Assembly: GCA_009776305.1 (NCBI GenBank)
Contig: WRLY01000004.1
Coordinates: 62,001 to 126,000 of the forward strand
DNA: 64,000 nt
Direction of reading: 5' to 3'
From: Oscillospiraceae bacterium
GTDB taxonomy: Bacteria > Bacillota > Clostridia > Oscillospirales > Ruminococcaceae
The translations under genes were made by a program, and so were the position numbers. A model generated the notes under the pieces. That model saw only the letters and a program-made list of their open reading frames with translations. It was not told where the DNA came from and searched no databases. This document shows positions 38,416 through 64,000 of the stretch, piece by piece (position 1 is the stretch's first letter; each line of letters starts with the position of its first letter).

Positions 38416-38484
38416 CGAAAAACAAATAAAGACGCTTATCAGCAAACTGAAAAAATCAGCCTGCCAATAAACGCCTTTGTTTAT
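38416..38484 (-). promoter_or_regulatory. gdhA leader: ANTAR-type hexaloop hairpin and terminator
   Basis: On the minus strand, ATAAAC-AAAGGC-GTTTAT (38467-38484) is a 6-bp hairpin with a hexaloop that has A1 and G4. The loop and 3' arm also form the 5' arm of a long hairpin, AAAGGCGTTTAT pairing with ATAAGCGTCTTT plus a 9-bp upper stem (38428-38478), followed by TATTTGTTTTTC. The two folds exclude each other, as in ANTAR antitermination. Confidence 0.75.
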
Positions 38485-38491
38485 CATTAAT

Positions 38492-38520
38492 ATTATATCA
38501 TAAAATGAAGCCGTTGTCAA
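38492..38520 (-). promoter_or_regulatory. Consensus gdhA promoter
   Basis: Minus strand TTGACA (38515-38520), 17-nt spacer, TATAAT (38492-38497); the leader hairpin starts within about ten nt of the -10. Confidence 0.9.
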
Positions 38521-39391: not shown

Positions 39392-39973
39392 TTATAAGTC
39401 AAGAAACTCTTTTAATAACACAAGACCCGCCGCGCCGCTTTTTTCGATATGAAATTGGGTGGCGTAAATGTTATCTTTTTGAACCGCCGCCGTGAATTCG
39501 CCGTTATAATCCGCAATTCCCCACAAGTCGGATTTGTCGTCGGGCTTTGCATAATAAGAATTAACAAAGTAGAAGTAATCCTGATTTCCGTTCCTGAACT
39601 TTACTTTATTCCATCCCATCTGAGGAACTCTTACTTTTGAAGAATCAAACTTTATAACTTTTCCTTTCAGCCAGCCAAGACAATCAACGTTTCTCTCCTC
39701 GCTGTGTTCAAAGAGAATCTGCAAACCTACGCAAATACCGAGAAACAGAACTTTTTTATGTAATACCGTAGTTTCAAGCGTTTCAATAATACCCATTTCA
39801 CGCAGGGAGTCCATTGTCGCTCCGGCACTGCCTACTCCCGGCAGGATAATATGCGTCGCGTCCTGTAAGTCCTGCGAATTGTGCGCGAAAGCCGCATCAA
39901 CCCCGAGATGATTTATGGCGTGAAGTACGCTCGGGGCATTTCCCGCCTTGTAATTAATTATCCTAATTTTCAT
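39392..39973 (-). CDS. HisH-like glutamine amidotransferase subunit
   Basis: A 193-residue class I glutaminase. Nucleophile loop FLGICVGLQILFE, HisH-type VPQMGWNKV and YFVNSYYA, and the His-Glu pair in TQFHIEKSG are intact. The N-terminus reads INYKAGNAPSVLHAI instead of DYGxGNLxSV, a variant of the HisF-contact region. It overlaps the ANTAR gene by 11 nt and precedes the HisF-like gene, so the two should form a channel complex delivering ammonia. Confidence 0.85.
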   Translation of the reverse strand: MKIRIINYKAGNAPSVLHAINHLGVDAAFAHNSQDLQDATHIILPGVGSAGATMDSLREMGIIETLETTVLHKKVLFLGICVGLQILFEHSEERNVDCLGWLKGKVIKFDSSKVRVPQMGWNKVKFRNGNQDYFYFVNSYYAKPDDKSDLWGIADYNGEFTAAVQKDNIYATQFHIEKSGAAGLVLLKEFLDL

Positions 39974-40532
39974 AGGTTCTTAAAACCCCCTCCGCGATTT
40001 CCCTTCTCGTAGAGCGCATATCCATAGCCTGCTTTTCTATATATCTGTGGGCTTCTTTTTCACTCATGTTCATACAGGATACTAATATTAATTTGGCGCG
40101 GTCAACAATGCGTATATCTTCTATTTTTTGAATTAGCCGCGCATTTTCATTTTGTATTCGTTTTATTCTGCTTTGGGCTGACTTAGCCAACATGAGCGCC
40201 GACCAAAATACAGTCTTATTGACCGGTTTTGAAATTGTCAAAACCCCGTCGCCCTCGCAAACTGCCGATACGGCGTCAAAATATTCATTCTTCACGATAA
40301 GAATAACCTGTGAAACACCTTTTGAGGCAATATATCGCGAAAGGCTTTCCCCTGATTCGTCACGAAGTGGAGCGTTGACCACCAACAAATCAAAATCACG
40401 CTCCAAAATAAGCCTCCGCGCTTCACCGCACGAACGTAAGGCGGAGATTTGCGTAATAGAAGCCGCGCTTAATATATCTGAAAAAAAATCGAAACCTTTT
40501 TCCGTGCTTGAAATTATCAGAGCGCTTTCCAT
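39963..40532 (-). CDS. ANTAR-domain RNA-binding antiterminator with pseudo-receiver
   Basis: A 189-residue regulator. The N-terminal part (about 1-120) is a receiver-like fold, but the phospho-acceptor position in DLLVVNAPLRDESG is Asn and the N-terminal acidic pair is absent (ALIISSTEKG); the Lys in TISKPV remains. A coiled coil (QSRIKRIQNENARLIQKIED) leads to the ANTAR domain (IVDRAKLILVSCMNMSEKEAHRYIEKQAMDMRSTRREIAEGVL). ANTAR proteins bind hexaloop hairpins and stop terminator formation. Cotranscribed with glnA, behind a leader of the type it should bind. Confidence 0.92.
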   Translation of the reverse strand: MESALIISSTEKGFDFFSDILSAASITQISALRSCGEARRLILERDFDLLVVNAPLRDESGESLSRYIASKGVSQVILIVKNEYFDAVSAVCEGDGVLTISKPVNKTVFWSALMLAKSAQSRIKRIQNENARLIQKIEDIRIVDRAKLILVSCMNMSEKEAHRYIEKQAMDMRSTRREIAEGVLRTYEN

Positions 40533-40563
40533 CACATCACCGCCTTCCCTGATAGTTGTTAAA

Positions 40564-41883
40564 TTAATTACTGTAAAAATATCGCTCTTTGTAAAAATCC
40601 TTTTTACTTTGGGCGGCGGTAAAATCAGCCGCCTCGGTTTTTTTAATTGTGAGATACTTCATAAACAATTCTTCGCCCACAATGCTCTTTATAAAACTAC
40701 TGTTTTCTGCAATAGCAATAGCTTTCTCCAGGCTGTCAGGCAATACGGCAAGGTTTTTAATAACAGCCTCGTCCGCGTTATATAAGTCGGCATCAACAGC
40801 CGCCGGAAGTATTGCATTGTTTTCTATGCCGTCAAGCCCTGCGGCGATAATCAGCGCGAACGAGAGATAGGGGTTTAAAGACGGGTCGGGTGAGCGCAGT
40901 TCCATTCTTACCTTAGAGCCGCTTGCGGCGGGGATTCTGATTAACTGCGAGCGGTTTTGATGTGACCACGACACATATTTAGGCGCGTCAAAATTGCCGA
41001 AACGCTCATAAGAATTGGCAAGCGGGTTTAAAAACAAGGTGATTTCAGGAGTTTTGGCAAGGATTCCGGCAATAAAGCTGTCGGCGATTTTAGAATGTCC
41101 CTCGCCAATCCTTTTAAATATATTAGAGCCGTTTTGCGAGATAGACAGATTTACATGCATACCGCTCCCCGCCGCATCGGCTATGGGCTTTGGCATAAAG
41201 GAAGCGTACAGACCGTTACGGGAGGCAATGGCTTTAACAACTGATTTAAATGTTTGCAGGTTATCGGCGCTTGAAACGGCGTCGCTGAACATAAAGCCGA
41301 TTTCATTTTGCCCCGGACCTTGTTCATGGTGCGAGGTTTCAGGCTTTATGCCCATTTCTTCAAGGGTCAGGCAGATTTCCCGCCGCGTATCCTCCCCACG
41401 GTCAAGAGGCGCAATGTCTAAATACCCGCCTTTATCAAAAGGTATGTCGGTCGGTTCTCCGTTTTCATCGGTTTTGAAAAGATAAAATTCACATTCGGCT
41501 CCGATTTTGCAGACGTAACCCATTTTTTCTGCCCGTTCGACAGCCCGTTTCAGCAATGTCCTGCCGTCATGCAAAAACTCCGAGCTGTCGGGATTCTTTA
41601 CATCGCAATAAAATCGGGCGACCCTGCCGGGTCCCGGTCGCCACGGAAGCACGGCTAACGTCTCAGGCGCGGGGAACAGGAAAAGGTCTGAACGCGTAAT
41701 GTCGCGAAAACCGCGAATCGCGTGAGCGTCAAATGATATGCCGTTTTCAAACGCCGATTGTAATTCATCAGCCATAATTGAAATGTTTTTTTGCTGACCT
41801 AAAATGTCGCAGAAACCCAGCCGTATAAACTTAATATCATTTTCTTTTACAACCTCCAATACTTCATTTGCCGTACTGTTCAT
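40564..41883 (-). CDS. glnA: Glutamine synthetase type I
   Basis: A 439-residue GS-I, ATP-dependent ligation of ammonium to glutamate. Motifs: IGAECEFYLF, HHEQGPGQNEIGF, GSGMHVNLS, NRSQLIRIPAASGSKVRMELRSPDPSLNPYLSFA. The adenylylation loop tyrosine of GS-I-beta is not evident, so regulation is likely by feedback and protein contacts (GS-I-alpha). AGGAGG precedes the ATG. Twelve nt after glmS and 31 nt before the ANTAR gene. Confidence 0.97.
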   Translation of the reverse strand: MNSTANEVLEVVKENDIKFIRLGFCDILGQQKNISIMADELQSAFENGISFDAHAIRGFRDITRSDLFLFPAPETLAVLPWRPGPGRVARFYCDVKNPDSSEFLHDGRTLLKRAVERAEKMGYVCKIGAECEFYLFKTDENGEPTDIPFDKGGYLDIAPLDRGEDTRREICLTLEEMGIKPETSHHEQGPGQNEIGFMFSDAVSSADNLQTFKSVVKAIASRNGLYASFMPKPIADAAGSGMHVNLSISQNGSNIFKRIGEGHSKIADSFIAGILAKTPEITLFLNPLANSYERFGNFDAPKYVSWSHQNRSQLIRIPAASGSKVRMELRSPDPSLNPYLSFALIIAAGLDGIENNAILPAAVDADLYNADEAVIKNLAVLPDSLEKAIAIAENSSFIKSIVGEELFMKYLTIKKTEAADFTAAQSKKDFYKERYFYSN

Positions 41884-41895
41884 GTGAAATTCCTC

Positions 41896-43716
41896 CTATT
41901 CAACCGTAACACTTTTGGCAAGGTTACGCGGTTTGTCTATATCAAGCCCTTTGTTTGCCGCTACATAATAACTGAATAATTGCAACACTATCACCGACAA
42001 AGACGGCGAAAAAAGCTCGTTACATTCGGGCAGGTCAAATAATTCGCAGTTTGCATTTGAAAATCGGCAGTTCTTCCCGATTAAGACAACCTTTGCCCCC
42101 CTGCTGATGACCTGCTCGGCGTTGCTTATGATTTTGGGGTAGAGCCGCTCACAATTAGCGATTGCGACTACCAGCGTGCCGTCTTCAATTAATGAAATTG
42201 TACCATGTTTAAGCTCTCCGCCCGCGTAGGCTTCCGAGTGAATGTATGAAATCTCCTTGAGTTTCAGCGAGCCCTCCATAGCAATAGCGTAATCTATGTT
42301 TCTGCCGATAAAAAATATGCTTTTATATCCGATACAGGTTGAAGCGTATTTTTGAATTTCATCAACCTTTTCGAGAATAGCGGCTGTTTTTTCGGGCAGG
42401 GCGGCTATTTCTGCCATAAGCTCCCGCTCTGTTTCAGATGTTATTTTCCCGAGTTTAACGGCGAAACTTACGGCTAATATGTAAAGTACCGCAAGTTGAG
42501 CCGAAAAGGCTTTTGTGGTAGCTACTGCGATTTCAGGTCCTGCCGCCGTATATACGCAATAATCCGATTCCTTGGCTATAGTACTGCCGATTACGTTTAC
42601 GATTGCCAATGTATCGGACTTTTTCAGTTTGGCTTCCCGCATGGCGGCTATGGTGTCGGCTGTTTCGCCCGACTGGCTGATTAGAATCACCAGCGTCTTT
42701 TCATCAATAACGGCGTCTTTGTACCTGAATTCACTCGCAAGCTCGGTTTCGATACACGGGAATCTGCAAAGCCTTTCAAAGACATACTTCGCCGCGATTC
42801 CGGCGTTATAGGCAGAGCCGCAGGCGGTGATTACTATTTTATTATAACGCGTAATGTCAAGATTATCAATAACTATTTTATTTTCGCCGTCGTTTCCCGC
42901 AGAGTTTATTGTTTCCCGCAGAATTTTGGGCTGTTCTTTAATTTCCTTTAGCATAAAGTGCGGCTCGCCACCCTTTTCCGCGCTTTCCACGCTCCACGTA
43001 ACAGTTTCTGGAGTTTTTTTAATCGGCTCTTTGTCAATGTTAAAAAACTCTACCTGATTTTTATGTAGCAGGGCGATTTCCTTATCTTCAAGGTAATAAA
43101 TCTTGTTTGTATGTTTCAGTACAGCCGGGATATCCGAGGCTATAAAATTCCCGTGTGCGGCTTCACCAATAATCAGCGGGTTGTCTTTTTTAATTGCGAC
43201 AAGCTTATCCGGTTCGTCATGGCATATTATACCGAGGGCATAAGAACCCTCAAGACGGTTGGATACCTTTATAACTGTTTCTATTATATCGCCCTTATAT
43301 TTATCGTAATAATATTCCGCAAGCTGTGCAATTACCTCGCTGTCTGTTTCGGAAATGAAACTTATGCCTTTTTTTTCAAGTTGTTCTTTTAACTGCTTAT
43401 AATTTTCAATTATGCCGTTATGAACCACCGCGATTTCATTCCGGCTACCCGCGTGAGGGTGAGAATTTATGTCCGACGGTTCGCCGTGGGTAGCCCAACG
43501 GGTATGCCCAATTCCCGAAGAATAATTTACAGATATTCCTGAAACATGCCGTTCCAATTCCGCAAGTCTGCCCTTACGTTTTATGACGTTAATGCCGTCT
43601 CTGCCGTAAACCGCTATCCCGGCAGAGTCATAGCCGCGGTATTCTAATTTTTTTAAGCCCTCAATAATGATGGGAACAGCGCTTTCACTTCCCGTATAGC
43701 CTATAATTCCGCACAT
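41896..43716 (-). CDS. glmS: Glutamine:fructose-6-phosphate aminotransferase
   Basis: A 606-residue GlmS that makes glucosamine-6-phosphate for peptidoglycan. N-terminal nucleophile amidotransferase (MCGIIGYTGSE, Cys2 after Met removal; GHTRWATHGEPS; HNGIIENY), then two SIS domains (TACGSAYNAGIAAKY; ISQSGETADTIAAMREAK) and the C-terminal LAKSVTVE. The leader shows no glmS ribozyme; it carries an ANTAR-type hairpin instead. First gene of glmS-glnA-ANTAR-hisH-hisF. Confidence 0.98.
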   Translation of the reverse strand: MCGIIGYTGSESAVPIIIEGLKKLEYRGYDSAGIAVYGRDGINVIKRKGRLAELERHVSGISVNYSSGIGHTRWATHGEPSDINSHPHAGSRNEIAVVHNGIIENYKQLKEQLEKKGISFISETDSEVIAQLAEYYYDKYKGDIIETVIKVSNRLEGSYALGIICHDEPDKLVAIKKDNPLIIGEAAHGNFIASDIPAVLKHTNKIYYLEDKEIALLHKNQVEFFNIDKEPIKKTPETVTWSVESAEKGGEPHFMLKEIKEQPKILRETINSAGNDGENKIVIDNLDITRYNKIVITACGSAYNAGIAAKYVFERLCRFPCIETELASEFRYKDAVIDEKTLVILISQSGETADTIAAMREAKLKKSDTLAIVNVIGSTIAKESDYCVYTAAGPEIAVATTKAFSAQLAVLYILAVSFAVKLGKITSETERELMAEIAALPEKTAAILEKVDEIQKYASTCIGYKSIFFIGRNIDYAIAMEGSLKLKEISYIHSEAYAGGELKHGTISLIEDGTLVVAIANCERLYPKIISNAEQVISRGAKVVLIGKNCRFSNANCELFDLPECNELFSPSLSVIVLQLFSYYVAANKGLDIDKPRNLAKSVTVE

Positions 43717-43737: not shown

Positions 43738-43811
43738 AAAAAACGCTCATCATATAACGCGGCAAGCAATCCGAAACAGCCCCCGCATCATTTGATGAAC
43801 GCCCTTGTTCA
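43738..43811 (-). promoter_or_regulatory. glmS-glnA leader: ANTAR-type hairpin and terminator
   Basis: Minus strand TGAAC-AAGGGC-GTTCA (43796-43811), hexaloop with A1 and G4. The alternative fold pairs AAGGGCGTTCATCA with TGATGAGCGTTTTTT (43738-43806), a long terminator-like hairpin ending in a T run. The 5' and 3' ends match the gdhA and GOGAT leaders (GGCGTT, GAGCGT) while inner bases covary. Confidence 0.72.
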
Positions 43812-43820
43812 ACATAATAC

Positions 43821-43849
43821 ATTATACCGTAAATTCAGGGATTTGTCAA
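43821..43849 (-). promoter_or_regulatory. Consensus glmS promoter
   Basis: Minus strand TTGACA (43844-43849), 17-nt spacer, TATAAT (43821-43826). Confidence 0.9.
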
Positions 43850-43899
43850 TAGTTTTTTGAGCCGCTTTAAAAATTTCAAAAAATTCCAGAAAAAAATTC

Positions 43900-43928
43900 T
43901 TGACAAACAGGCGGATTTGTTGTATAAT
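43900..43928 (+). promoter_or_regulatory. Consensus promoter of the GOGAT/purine/pyrimidine run
   Basis: TTGACA (43900-43905), 17-nt spacer, TATAAT (43923-43928). I see no other strong promoter in the gaps down to pyrG, so this may drive about 17 kb. Confidence 0.9.
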
Positions 43929-43940
43929 AATGATTGAAAT

Positions 43941-44001
43941 TGAACAAAGGCGTTCATTATGCGATAGCACCGCTATTTCGTAATGAGCGTCTTTTATTTG
44001 T
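43941..44001 (+). promoter_or_regulatory. GOGAT leader: ANTAR-type hairpin and terminator
   Basis: TGAAC-AAAGGC-GTTCA (43941-43956), hexaloop with A1 and G4. The competing fold is a nearly perfect 23-bp stem (AAAGGCGTTCATTATG... with ...CGTAATGAGCGTCTTT, 43946-43994) followed by TATTTG. Mutually exclusive with the small hairpin. Confidence 0.75.
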
Positions 44002-59800: not shown

Positions 59801-61399
59801 ATGACTAAATATATTTTTGTAACAGGCGGGGTGGTTTCCGGGCTTGGAAAAGGTATTACAGCGGCGTCTTTGGGGCGGTTGCTTAAACAGAGGGGGTTAA
59901 AAATCGCGGCGCAGAAGCTTGACCCTTATATGAACGTTGACCCCGGGACAATGAGCCCTTTTCAGCACGGCGAGGTTTTTGTAACCGACGACGGGGCGGA
60001 AACCGACCTTGATTTGGGGCATTATGAGAGGTTTATAGATGAGAACCTTACAAAGCTCAGTAACCTTACTTCGGGAAAGGTCTACTGGAGCGTTCTCGAG
60101 CGGGAGCGGGCGGGTGGTTATCTCGGGGGGACGGTTCAGGTGATTCCTCATGTAACCGAGGAAATCAAAAGTTTTATATACGCGGGTGCAAATAACAGCA
60201 ACGCAGATGTGCTGATTACCGAAATAGGCGGCACGGCGGGGGATATTGAAAGTCAGCCGTTCATAGAAGCCATTCGGCAAATTTCTCTTGAAAAAGGGCG
60301 TGAAAACTGCCTTTTTATCCACGTTACATTAATTCCATACCTCAAAGCGTCGGGAGAACACAAATCAAAGCCCACGCAACATTCTGTCAAGGAATTACAG
60401 GCAATGGGTATTAGCCCCAATGTCATTATAGCGCGGGCAGACGAACCTTTGAGCGGGGGAATAAAGGAAAAAATTTCACTTTTTTGCAATGTTAAGCCCG
60501 ATTGCGTTATTGAAAACATAACGTTACCCTCCTTGTATGAAGCGCCGCTTATGTTGCACCAAAACGGACTTGACAGGGTTGCTTGCCGTGAATTGGGGCT
60601 TTGCGTTCCGGAGGCTGATTTGTGCGAATGGCGTGAGATGAGCCGCAAGATTGCCGAGCGGGAAAAGCAGACAACTATTGCTGTTGTAGGAAAATATGTA
60701 CAGCTCCACGACGCTTATCTTTCTGTTATCGAAAGCTTGAACCACGCGGGGTTTGAAGTCGGCGTAAGTGTTAATATAAAATGGATTGACAGCGCGGAAT
60801 TAAGTCCCGCAAATGCGGAAAATCTGCTTCAAGGTGTGAACGGTATGATTATCCCGGGCGGATTCGGCGACAGGGGCATAGAGGGTAAAATCGCCGCCTG
60901 CCGATTCGCAAGAGAAAATAATATACCTTTCTTGGGAATCTGTCTTGGTATGCAGATTGCAGTTATTGAATTTGCCCGTCATGTCTGCGGCTTGGAGCGG
61001 GCAAACTCAGGCGAGTTTGACGAGATTTCGCCTCATCGCGTAATAGACCTTATGCCGGAGCAGGCGGGGAAAATCGGAAGCGGCGGTACTATGCGGCTTG
61101 GCGCGTATCCGTGCGTAATCGAGCAAGGCTCGCGACTTCATGAGTTATACGGGGTTTCGGAAATAAGCGAGAGGCACAGGCATCGTTTCGAGTTTAACAA
61201 CGACTACCGTGAAACGCTTGCTGAAAACGGGCTGACAATCAGCGGGACGTCGCCTGATGGAACTCTTGTTGAGGCGGTAGAGTTGCCGAACGCGCTGTTT
61301 CATGCGGGGGTTCAATTTCACCCCGAATTCAAGAGCCGCCCAAACAAGCCGCACCCGTTGTTTTTGGGGTTGGTTAAGACTTCTTTGCAAAAAACATGA
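59801..61399 (+). CDS. pyrG: CTP synthase
   Basis: A 532-residue CTP synthase that aminates UTP with glutamine. Synthetase domain start [58 protein letters not shown]-terminal glutaminase with [18 protein letters not shown] and [19 protein letters not shown] before the ATG. Last gene of the plus-strand run that starts at the GOGAT glutaminase. Confidence 0.98.
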
Positions 61400-61418: not shown

Positions 61419-61447
61419 TTGACAAATAAAACAGCTTATGTTATAAT
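61419..61447 (+). promoter_or_regulatory. Consensus promoter of amt-glnN
   Basis: TTGACA (61419-61424), 17-nt spacer, TATAAT (61442-61447), 20 nt after the pyrG stop. Confidence 0.92.
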
Positions 61448-61458
61448 ATCAAAGTAAT

Positions 61459-61507
61459 CAGCAAAGACGCTGTGAACTTTTTGTTCACAGCGTCTTTAAG
61501 TTTATTG
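61459..61507 (+). promoter_or_regulatory. amt leader module 1: ANTAR-type hairpin and hairpin I
   Basis: CAGC-AAAGAC-GCTG (61459-61472), hexaloop A1/G4, resembling the AGCAAnGRnGCU ANTAR consensus. The competing fold is a perfect 15-bp stem AAAGACGCTGTGAAC-TTTTT-GTTCACAGCGTCTTT (61463-61497) followed by AAGTTTATTG, which also serves as a pyrG terminator candidate. Confidence 0.78.
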
Positions 61508-61516
61508 CAACAAACA

Positions 61517-61570
61517 GCACAAGGGCGTGCGTTTTTCCGCTTATGGCGGGAAAACGCATATTTTCTTTAG
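61517..61570 (+). promoter_or_regulatory. amt leader module 2: ANTAR-type hairpin and terminator II
   Basis: GCAC-AAGGGC-GTGC (61517-61530), hexaloop A1/G4. Its 3' arm is the start of a 13-bp terminator stem TGCGTTTTTCCGC-TTATG-GCGGGAAAACGCA (61528-61558) followed by TATTTTCTTTA. The hairpin and terminator cannot coexist, the classic ANTAR P2 arrangement. Confidence 0.8.
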
Positions 61571-61644: not shown

Positions 61645-63360
61645 ATGGATTTCAGTATTTGGTTTTTACTTGCGGCGGCAATGGTGTTCTTTATGCAGAG
61701 TGGTTTTACAATGGTTGAGGCGGGCTTTACCAGAGCCAAAAATGCCGGAAACATTATCATGAAGAATCTTATGGATTTTTGCGTCGGAACGATTTTCTTT
61801 GTGTTTATCGGGTTTTCAATCATGTGCGCAGAGGATTACTTCTTAGGAATTATCGGTGTGCCTAACCTCGGCATCTTTACCGATTTCGCTAATTTCGATT
61901 TTTCTAATTTTGTGTTTAACTTAGTCTTCTGTGCGACTGCGGCGACAATCGTGTCGGGGGCTATGGCAGAGCGGACAAAATTCAGCTCTTATTTGGTTTA
62001 CACAGCGGTAATAAGCGCGGTTGTATACCCTATAGAAGCAGGTTGGGTCTGGAATGAAAGCGGCTGGTTGGCGCAACTCGGTTATACTGACTTCGCTGGT
62101 TCTTCGGCGATTCACATGGTCGGCGGTATTACGGCATTCATAGGGGCGGCTATACTCGGACCGAGGATTGGCAAGTACGCCATTGATAAAACAACGGGAA
62201 AGAAAGTTTCAAAAGCGATTCCCGGTCACTCAATGACGCTCGGCGCGCTTGGCGTATTTATTCTTTGGTTTGGTTGGTACGGCTTCAACGGCGCAGCGGC
62301 TGAAAATGTTTCTCAGCTCGGCTCCATATTTCTGACCACAACGTTAGCGGCGGGAATCGGCGCAACCTCCGCTATGATACTTACATGGCTCAAAAATGGC
62401 AAACCTGACGTCTCCATGACCCTCAACGGCTCGCTTGCGGGGCTTGTGGGTATTACGGCGGGCTGTACCAATGTAGATGCGCTCGGTGCTTTGATAATAG
62501 GTGCAGTTGCGGGTATGCTCGTTGTACTGGCGGTTGAGGTAATCGACATTAAACTTCACATTGACGACCCTATCGGCGCGGTTGCGGTACACGGTGTCTG
62601 CGGCGTATGGGGAACATTAGCGGTCGGTTTATTCGCAAGACCTATCTCGGCGGGAGAAGACGTTATTTCCGATGTTACGGGGCTTTTTTACGGCGGCGGA
62701 GCCGACCTCCTTGGGGTTCAGGCTTTGGGTGTTCTCTCAATAGCGTTATGGACAACTGTTACTATGCTTATTACTTTTACGCTCATCAAGAAAACAGTAG
62801 GATTGCGCGCTTCTGCCGAGGACGAAATTATGGGTCTTGACTCAACTGAACACGGTCTGACAAGCAGCTATGCTGACTTTTTGCCGGTTGCTAACGCTGA
62901 TTTGCAGGTATTGGGCGGCGAGTATCCAAAAAAGCCTTTTATGCCTGTTGCTCCTGCTGAGGCTATTACCGTTACCGATGTATCGACCGGCAAAAAGCTT
63001 ACTAAGGTTACGATTCTTACAAAGCAAAGCAAGTTCGCGGTACTGCGGGAAGCGTTTGACCAAATCGGCATTACAGGTATAACTGTTACAAATGTTATGG
63101 GTTACGGCGTACAACGCGGGCATACCCATACATACCGCGGAGTGCCGCTTGATTCGCCGCTTATGCCTAAAATTCAGATTGACGTAATCATCAGCAAGGT
63201 GCCTGTCGAAGTGTTGGTTGAAGCGGTTAAAAAGGCGCTGTATACAGGTAATATAGGCGACGGCAAAATATTCGTTTATGACGTGGAAAATGTTATTAAG
63301 GTTAGAACCGGCGAGGAAGGCTTTAACGCCTTGCAGGACGCCTATGCCGGAGATGAATAA
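61645..63360 (+). CDS. amt: Ammonium transporter fused to a PII signalling domain
   Basis: A 571-residue fusion. Residues about 1-400 are an 11-helix Amt channel (MVFFMQSGFTMVEAGFTRAKNAGNII; pore histidines in IHMVGGITAF and AVHGVCGVWGT). After a linker of about 55 residues comes a full PII/GlnK domain (LTKVTILTKQSKFAVLREAF; T-loop GYGVQRGHTHTYRGVPLDSP; B-loop TGNIGDGKIFVYD; C-loop RTGEEG). The uridylylation Tyr51 position is Leu while Gln39 is kept, so ATP/2-oxoglutarate sensing without uridylylation is likely. ANTAR-type leader upstream. Confidence 0.93.
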   Translation: MDFSIWFLLAAAMVFFMQSGFTMVEAGFTRAKNAGNIIMKNLMDFCVGTIFFVFIGFSIMCAEDYFLGIIGVPNLGIFTDFANFDFSNFVFNLVFCATAATIVSGAMAERTKFSSYLVYTAVISAVVYPIEAGWVWNESGWLAQLGYTDFAGSSAIHMVGGITAFIGAAILGPRIGKYAIDKTTGKKVSKAIPGHSMTLGALGVFILWFGWYGFNGAAAENVSQLGSIFLTTTLAAGIGATSAMILTWLKNGKPDVSMTLNGSLAGLVGITAGCTNVDALGALIIGAVAGMLVVLAVEVIDIKLHIDDPIGAVAVHGVCGVWGTLAVGLFARPISAGEDVISDVTGLFYGGGADLLGVQALGVLSIALWTTVTMLITFTLIKKTVGLRASAEDEIMGLDSTEHGLTSSYADFLPVANADLQVLGGEYPKKPFMPVAPAEAITVTDVSTGKKLTKVTILTKQSKFAVLREAFDQIGITGITVTNVMGYGVQRGHTHTYRGVPLDSPLMPKIQIDVIISKVPVEVLVEAVKKALYTGNIGDGKIFVYDVENVIKVRTGEEGFNALQDAYAGDE

Positions 63361-63384: not shown

Positions 63385-64000
63385 ATGAAAAACATATCTG
63401 ATTTATTCGGAAGTATGGTATTCAGCGATGCGGTTATGCAGGCGCGGCTACCCAAAGACGCTTATAAGGCGCTTAAAAAAACCATGTCGCAGGGTACGCA
63501 CTTGGAGCTTGACGTTGCCAACGTAGTGGCAAACGCTATGAAAAACTGGGCTGTGGAAAAGGGCGCGACCCACTTTACACACTGGTTTCAACCTATGACG
63601 GGGATTACGGCTGAGAAACATGACGCATTTATTTCCCCTGCCAAAGATGGAAATATTATTATGGAGTTTTCAGGGAAAGAGCTTGTTCGGGGTGAGCCTG
63701 ACGCGTCAAGTTTCCCGTCAGGCGGCTTACGCGCCACCTTTGAGGCAAGGGGCTATACTGTCTGGGATACTACCTCTTATGCCTTTATTAAGGACGGTAC
63801 GCTTTGTATTCCCACTGCTTTTTGTTCATACAGCGGAGAGGCTCTTGACAAAAAAACGCCGCTACTGCGTTCTATGGAGGCGATTGACAAGCAGGCGCAG
63901 CGTATATTGAAACTTTTCGGAAACCAAACGGTCAAGCGGGTGATTACAACCGTCGGTCCTGAGCAGGAATATTTTCTTATAGATAAAGAAATGTACTTAA
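63385..64000 (+). CDS. glnN: Glutamine synthetase type III (C-terminal part beyond window)
   Basis: The first 205 codons of a GS-III, a large glutamine synthetase class found in Bacteroidetes, Cyanobacteria and many Clostridia. N-terminal features: [62 protein letters not shown] and [12 protein letters not shown], the first metal-binding Glu region. AGGAGG lies before the ATG, 24 nt after amt. The ORF track misses it because the stop is outside. It is a second synthetase besides glnA. Confidence 0.96.

Follow-up and report, generated by a model that had tools for sequence, protein, structure and literature searches.

Described targets of ANTAR proteins carry two hexaloop hairpins. In the dual motif of the eut genes of Enterococcus faecalis, the first hairpin (P1) lies outside the terminator and is joined to the second (P2) by a linker of 5-12 nt; with a 14-nt linker, or with 20 nt added, control of eutP is lost (PMC3369931, PMC8934654). 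The regulator, EutV, requires both hexaloops in vivo (PMC3369931), and the features it needs are A1 and G4 of the loop together with the closing pair (PMC3369931, PMC8934654). Searches for ANTAR targets have required two hairpins (PMC3369931, PMC8164766), and P1-P2 linkers of 2-25 nt have been accepted (PMC8164766). In the structure of EutV with RNA, a single hexaloop was taken as the minimal site; its authors expected single sites where transcription imposes no time limit, and left open what a second hexaloop is needed for if a single loop is bound by each dimer (PMC8934654). We found no description of single-hexaloop attenuators in the open-licence literature.

Here we describe the leader of an ammonium transporter gene, amt, in a stretch of 64 000 nt (the window). 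It shares with the dual-hexaloop targets (eut of Enterococcus, nasF/NasR and amiE/AmiR; PMC3369931) an A1/G4 hexaloop with a conserved closing pair, an overlap between hexaloop and intrinsic terminator, nitrogen genes downstream and an ANTAR gene in the genome. It differs from them in three respects: there is one hexaloop per terminator and not two; the hairpin is at the 5' end of the RNA, right behind the promoter; and in tandems every copy comes with a separate terminator. The leader probably consists of two complete single-hexaloop attenuators of the ANTAR type in series, each an independent gate.

Hexaloop hairpins and terminators in the amt leader

The features of the window are collected in Table 1. 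The amt promoter, which has a TG ahead of its -10 box, lies just 3' of the end of pyrG at 61399. From the end of the -10 box at 61447, the RNA is predicted to start at ~61454. Hairpin I begins ~5 nt from this predicted 5' end, which leaves no room for a P1 hairpin.

Table 1. Features of the amt leader, of the other hexaloop modules and of the associated genes in the window
Feature	Position	Strand	Evidence and remarks
gdhA module, single, promoter-proximal	38428-38520	-	R1, 52.5 bits; loop AAAGGC at 38478-38473; 8-bp hexaloop stem
ANTAR antiterminator gene (predicted)	39963-40535	-	PF03861, 50.4 bits
glnA, glutamine synthetase I	40564-41883	-	Pfam; directly 5' of the ANTAR gene
glmS	41896-43716	-	ORF, Pfam; first gene of the row behind the glmS module
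glmS module, single, promoter-proximal	43739-43849	-	R1, 47.9 bits; loop AAGGGC at 43806-43801
gltB module, single, promoter-proximal	43900-43994	+	R1, 45.3 bits; loop AAAGGC at 43946-43951
amt sigma-A promoter, TTGACA-17-TATAAT	61419-61447	+	12/12 match
Hexaloop hairpin I, CAGC-AAAGAC-GCTG	61459-61472	+	Sequence; putative module I antiterminator, located right at the RNA 5' end
Terminator I	61463-61497	+	Terminator scan, folding; perfect 15-bp stem, loop TTTTT, tail AAGTTTATTG
Hexaloop hairpin II, GCAC-AAGGGC-GTGC	61517-61530	+	Sequence; putative antiterminator of module II, without its own promoter
Terminator II and U-rich tail ATTTTCTTTA	61527-61569	+	Terminator scan, folding; stem 61527-61559, 15 pairs
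amt, ammonium transporter	61645-63360	+	ORF; orthologues via protein search; gene behind both modules
glnN, glutamine synthetase III	63385-64000	+	Sequence; 5' part only, extends past the window

Both hairpins are exactly where an earlier note on this DNA had placed them, separated by a linker of 44 nt (58 nt from loop to loop), and both loops, AAAGAC in hairpin I and AAGGGC in hairpin II, are hexanucleotides with A1 and G4. The perfect 15-bp stem that the note had seen competing with the first hairpin is also present. This stem (terminator I) uses the loop and the 3' arm of hairpin I, and the two structures are mutually exclusive. The second hairpin does overlap a terminator with a T-rich tail, GTGC being common to both structures, but the terminator has a stem of 15 pairs and not of 13 bp as the note had it.

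Both stems were called by a terminator scan (4 sites in total versus 0.2 +/- 0.4 in shuffles), and the folding energy of the leader is -53.3 kcal/mol (z = -10.5 against shuffles). Terminators I and II (-25.0 and -23.7 kcal/mol) outfold hairpins I and II (-4.3 and -5.5 kcal/mol) by ~20 kcal/mol; termination is thus the predicted default state, and the hexaloops would persist only with the help of a factor. The AAGTTTATTG behind terminator I is a weak U-tract; most relatives have a stronger one, and gate I may therefore be leaky. A search of Rfam gave no match at gathering score across the window and nothing near threshold in the amt leader. Downstream, glnN is probably cotranscribed with amt.

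Tandem and lone modules in orthologous amt leaders

We compared 101 amt leaders. At least one module was found in 58, with a tandem in 19, and none was detected in 43; module control of amt is therefore not universal. In all 19 tandems a promoter-proximal module comes first and is followed by a promoterless module, with a loop spacing of 46-246 nt. Such variable spacing fits two serial gates and not a fixed dual motif. Lone modules are promoter-proximal in 24 leaders and promoterless in 15, and in about half of the latter a glnN gene was seen to end immediately upstream. The module next to amt apparently moves together with this gene, in the order promoter-I-glnN-II-amt or promoter-I-II-amt. 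Promoterless modules in other amt leaders mostly read GYAC-AANGRN-GTRC, like hairpin II, and in promoterless candidates chosen with no stem required, pairs 3 and 4 were formed in 95% and 97%, compared with an expected 75% and 70%. An ANTAR gene is present in 58 of the 59 amt-bearing genomes examined, whether a module was seen or not, so its presence does not discriminate between these leaders.

The earlier note had made its reading depend on close relatives keeping the second hexaloop. This holds for G317, G060, G063, G071 and G261, which keep both modules, and for G020, which has module II only; it fails in G036 and G044, where module I alone is present. The second module is also kept in distant Clostridia, and two modules are found in the glnN leader of G038. 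The G020 leader (L033) has no recognisable module I; its promoter and module II are separated by a long, imperfect palindrome that may be a MITE-like insert. The amt leader of G042 (L047) has by eye an apparent third unit, GGC-AAAGGC-GCC, which the detector did not call.

These leaders bear on the P1/P2 layout that the note had named. As a canonical dual target, the amt leader would have hairpin I as the P1 recruitment site and hairpin II as the P2 antiterminator across a long linker, with terminator II as the sole real gate and the 15-bp stem at hairpin I as incidental. In keeping with such a target, the leader has a pair of A1/G4 hexaloops, of which the second overlaps a terminator. Its linker, however, is 44 nt long, whereas a linker of 14 nt, or one lengthened by 20 nt, abolishes eutP control (PMC3369931, PMC8934654), and the orthologous spacings run from 46 to 246 nt. 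The weak U-tract of terminator I would suit an incidental stem, yet in relatives module I has a terminator to itself, and the U-tract there is often strong. While ANTAR-held hairpin I could still pass protein to hairpin II, either module occurs alone in other amt leaders, and the gdhA, glmS and gltB leaders have a single hexaloop. We consider a dual target unlikely, and since neither linker length nor the placement of P1 agrees with a dual-hexaloop element, the amt leader should not be classed as one. The double gate, which the note had offered as an alternative, is instead what the two complete modules, the variable spacing and the tandems in 19 of 101 amt leaders support.

Single modules in the window and in other genomes

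Hexaloop/terminator modules precede all four members of the regulon that the note had proposed (gdhA, glmS, gltB/GOGAT and amt), and these are the four promoter-linked modules of the window. The gdhA, glmS and gltB leaders have one module each, directly behind a perfect promoter. The distance from the -10 box to the first loop base is only 13-17 nt in the four leaders, so the hairpin begins only a few nucleotides into the RNA, where P1 would have no room. The three single modules, of which the amt arrangement could in the note's words be a stronger version, are better described as the basic unit than as a lesser form, and a single hexaloop per terminator is also the usual arrangement in related Clostridia.

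A promoter-plus-hexaloop covariance model (R1) was used to search for further modules. The assembly containing the window comprises 1.54 Mb and is 71% complete, and whole-genome statements rest on searches of it. Here R1 gave four sites at 45-52 bits, at gdhA (the best match), amt, glmS and gltB, all of which belonged to the training set; the next best match scored 31. In 20 modules the closing C-G pair and loop positions A1, A2 and G4 are invariant. Of 59 related genomes, 20 have no ANTAR gene (PF03861 absent). Matches of at least 38 bits were found in 29 of 39 ANTAR+ genomes and 1 of 20 ANTAR- genomes (p = 2e-7) and, in genomes outside the training set, in 16 of 25 and 1 of 20 (p = 4e-5), or in 14 of 25 and 1 of 20 once two terminator-less matches are removed (p = 3e-4); kinship between the genomes makes all three p values optimistic. 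The non-training matches stand ahead of gltB, glnN, amt and glmS, and glnN homologues in relatives stand behind the same type of module. Matches below ~38 bits are of mixed quality. Above this score, the matches in G026 and G033 were rejected as modules: they have a promoter and a loop-like string without a terminator.

An independent set of 80 ANTAR loci was fetched using an alignment of 21 ANTAR proteins, and includes Herbinix hemicellulosilytica, Clostridium cuniculi, C. methylpentosum, Sedimentibacter saalensis, Pygmaiobacter massiliensis, Niameybacter massiliensis and MAGs labelled Treponema. A strict detector, which overlooks modules with imperfect tails and so gives module frequencies as lower bounds, found 67 modules in 46 of the 80 loci (1.05 Mb) and 0 in the same sequence reversed; the modules are thus not due to chance. 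A second hexaloop within 20 nt upstream was seen for 1 of the 67, the other 66 having none. A promoter with at most two mismatches precedes 54 of the 67, compared with 1.1% of random positions, and the distance from the -10 box to the loop is 11-17 nt in nearly all modules of these loci. Two MAGs labelled Treponema or Spirochaetales (L196, L203) have the glnA-linked ANTAR type as well as modules, reflecting either transfer or a binning error. As a control, a dual-hexaloop detector was run on eutP loci. The control is thin, in that one dual element was called and the other eutP loci gave none; the element, in the eutP-type locus L289, is a canonical dual hexaloop (GCAC-AATGGA-GTGT, a linker of ~13, AAGC-AAAGAA-GCTT and a terminator).

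Earlier alignment counts, based on the detector, were biased by selection and have been replaced by counts from modules chosen by promoter, loop string and terminator, with no hexaloop stem required. In 53 modules of this kind, pairs 1-4 of the hairpin are formed in 98, 100, 100 and 96%. For pair 4, 45% would be expected from the make-up of the columns, and the 96% observed comprises GC (19), CG (26) and AT (6) pairs. The terminator does not include the hexaloop's 5' arm, so this covariation is evidence for the hairpin itself.

The ANTAR protein

The predicted ANTAR gene in the window is the only PF03861 match in the 71% complete assembly. Its product resembles Rv1626, AmiR, EutV and NasR, and has a pseudo-receiver in which the phospho-acceptor Asp of EutV-type regulators is absent, with Asn54 at this position. 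Across the family the position is Asn in 68 of 81 proteins and Asp in 10 of 81. Of 78 evaluable loci, 73 have glnA immediately 5' of the ANTAR gene. A clostridial glnA-linked antiterminator has reportedly been the subject of older work. Tyr164 and Met172 of EutV, which stack on G4 and contact the loop, align with His163 and Met171, both invariant in 21 ANTAR proteins; as the motif used for the 80-locus scan covers Met171, the larger set adds nothing on the conservation of that residue.

AmiR of Pseudomonas (1qo0) likewise combines a pseudo-receiver with an ANTAR domain that has the AH motif, but here the gene is paired with glnA and not with amiC, and the regulon comprises ammonium and glutamine genes. 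If AmiR-AmiC is a guide, the signal is more likely to come from a protein partner than from a kinase, and GlnA would be the obvious candidate.

That an ANTAR protein acts on these leaders, as the note had supposed, is supported by the invariance of A1 and G4, by the co-occurrence of modules and ANTAR genes and by the ANTAR gene behind the glmS module. If the terminators were instead regulated by another factor (a small molecule, a different RNA-binding protein or a link with transcription start), A1 and G4 would be accidental. Module-like leaders do occur in G051 and G040, where no ANTAR gene was detected, but against this reading stand an invariant closing C-G pair, A1 and G4 that are the very requirements of EutV (PMC3369931, PMC8934654), the co-occurrence across genomes, an ANTAR gene inside a glnA cluster behind the same type of module, and the match of the EutV Tyr164/Met172 pair with invariant His163/Met171; we regard it as very unlikely. 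As to the two leaders themselves, that of G051 is ahead of glnN and lacks a clear terminator, and that of G040 precedes an unassigned gene and has a terminator. Finally, two ordinary terminators without regulation, one ending transcription of pyrG and one left over, can hardly be the explanation, for although pyrG does end just upstream, the amt promoter precedes both stems, the 5' arms of the hexaloops covary in related modules even though they are not part of the terminators, and tandems recur in 19 amt leaders.

A model for two gates in series

The modules, their place next to promoters, covariation, regulon and conservation are features of the sequence; from them we infer a model of how two ANTAR gates would work. 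By default, each terminator would fold and halt RNA polymerase. Active ANTAR protein, presumably under nitrogen or glutamine limitation, would bind hairpin I once it has emerged at the RNA 5' end, and the held hairpin would block pairing of the 5' arm of terminator I. The protein would act likewise, and independently, at hairpin II 58 nt downstream, and read-through into amt-glnN would occur only when both gates are open. Two serial gates should give amt-glnN a steeper response to active ANTAR protein than the single gates of gdhA, glmS and gltB. The working unit would be one hexaloop per terminator.

A lone hexaloop that works in attenuation would contradict EutV, the one well-tested case (PMC3369931), and the ANTAR family of the window would need faster or tighter binding than EutV. 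The minimal site in the EutV-RNA structure is similar in that one hexaloop is the binding unit, but differs in being expected where there is no time limit on transcription; here, single sites are found in attenuators (PMC8934654). Several ANTAR attenuators per nitrogen-gene transcription unit are also seen in Desulfotomaculum acetoxidans (13 matches in six units), although those matches come from a two-hairpin search model (PMC3369931). In the wider sense, and as judged from its sequence, the amt leader fits ANTAR antitermination, with an ANTAR gene present, an A1/G4 hexaloop opposed to a terminator, and nitrogen genes; on the same footing, the design of one putative ANTAR hexaloop per terminator is the new point.

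Such modules probably represent a widespread clostridial class, with one hexaloop at the 5' end per terminator and a glnA-linked, mostly non-phosphorylatable ANTAR protein, in which doubled or tripled modules set the steepness of the response. If this is true, the rule of two obligatory hexaloops falls, and a large nitrogen regulon of gut and termite Clostridia may have escaped two-hairpin searches (PMC3369931, PMC8164766). Natural one-hexaloop attenuators would make the question of why EutV has two hexaloops (PMC8934654) directly testable, and orthologous amt leaders with one, two and apparently three modules in a row would be a natural experiment on gate number versus steepness.

Gene neighbourhood

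The row behind the glmS module runs glmS-glnA-ANTAR-class I glutamine amidotransferase-hisF-like, and the amidotransferase is probably HisH. On the other side, the stretch from gltB to glnN holds purine, carbamoyl-phosphate, guaA, pyrG and amt genes. The glmS and gltB promoters are divergent (43739-43994), with -35 boxes ~50 nt apart and a hexaloop module for each; modules back to back, with gltB facing glnN, are also found in relatives, e.g. L155 and L130. Together, positions 37049-64000 form a 27-kb island, most of which is devoted to producing or consuming glutamine. Scattered among purine genes, those for the synthesis or use of glutamine or glutamate are gdhA, hisF/hisH-like, ANTAR, glnA, glmS, a split glutamate synthase, purF, carA, carB, guaA, pyrG, amt and glnN.
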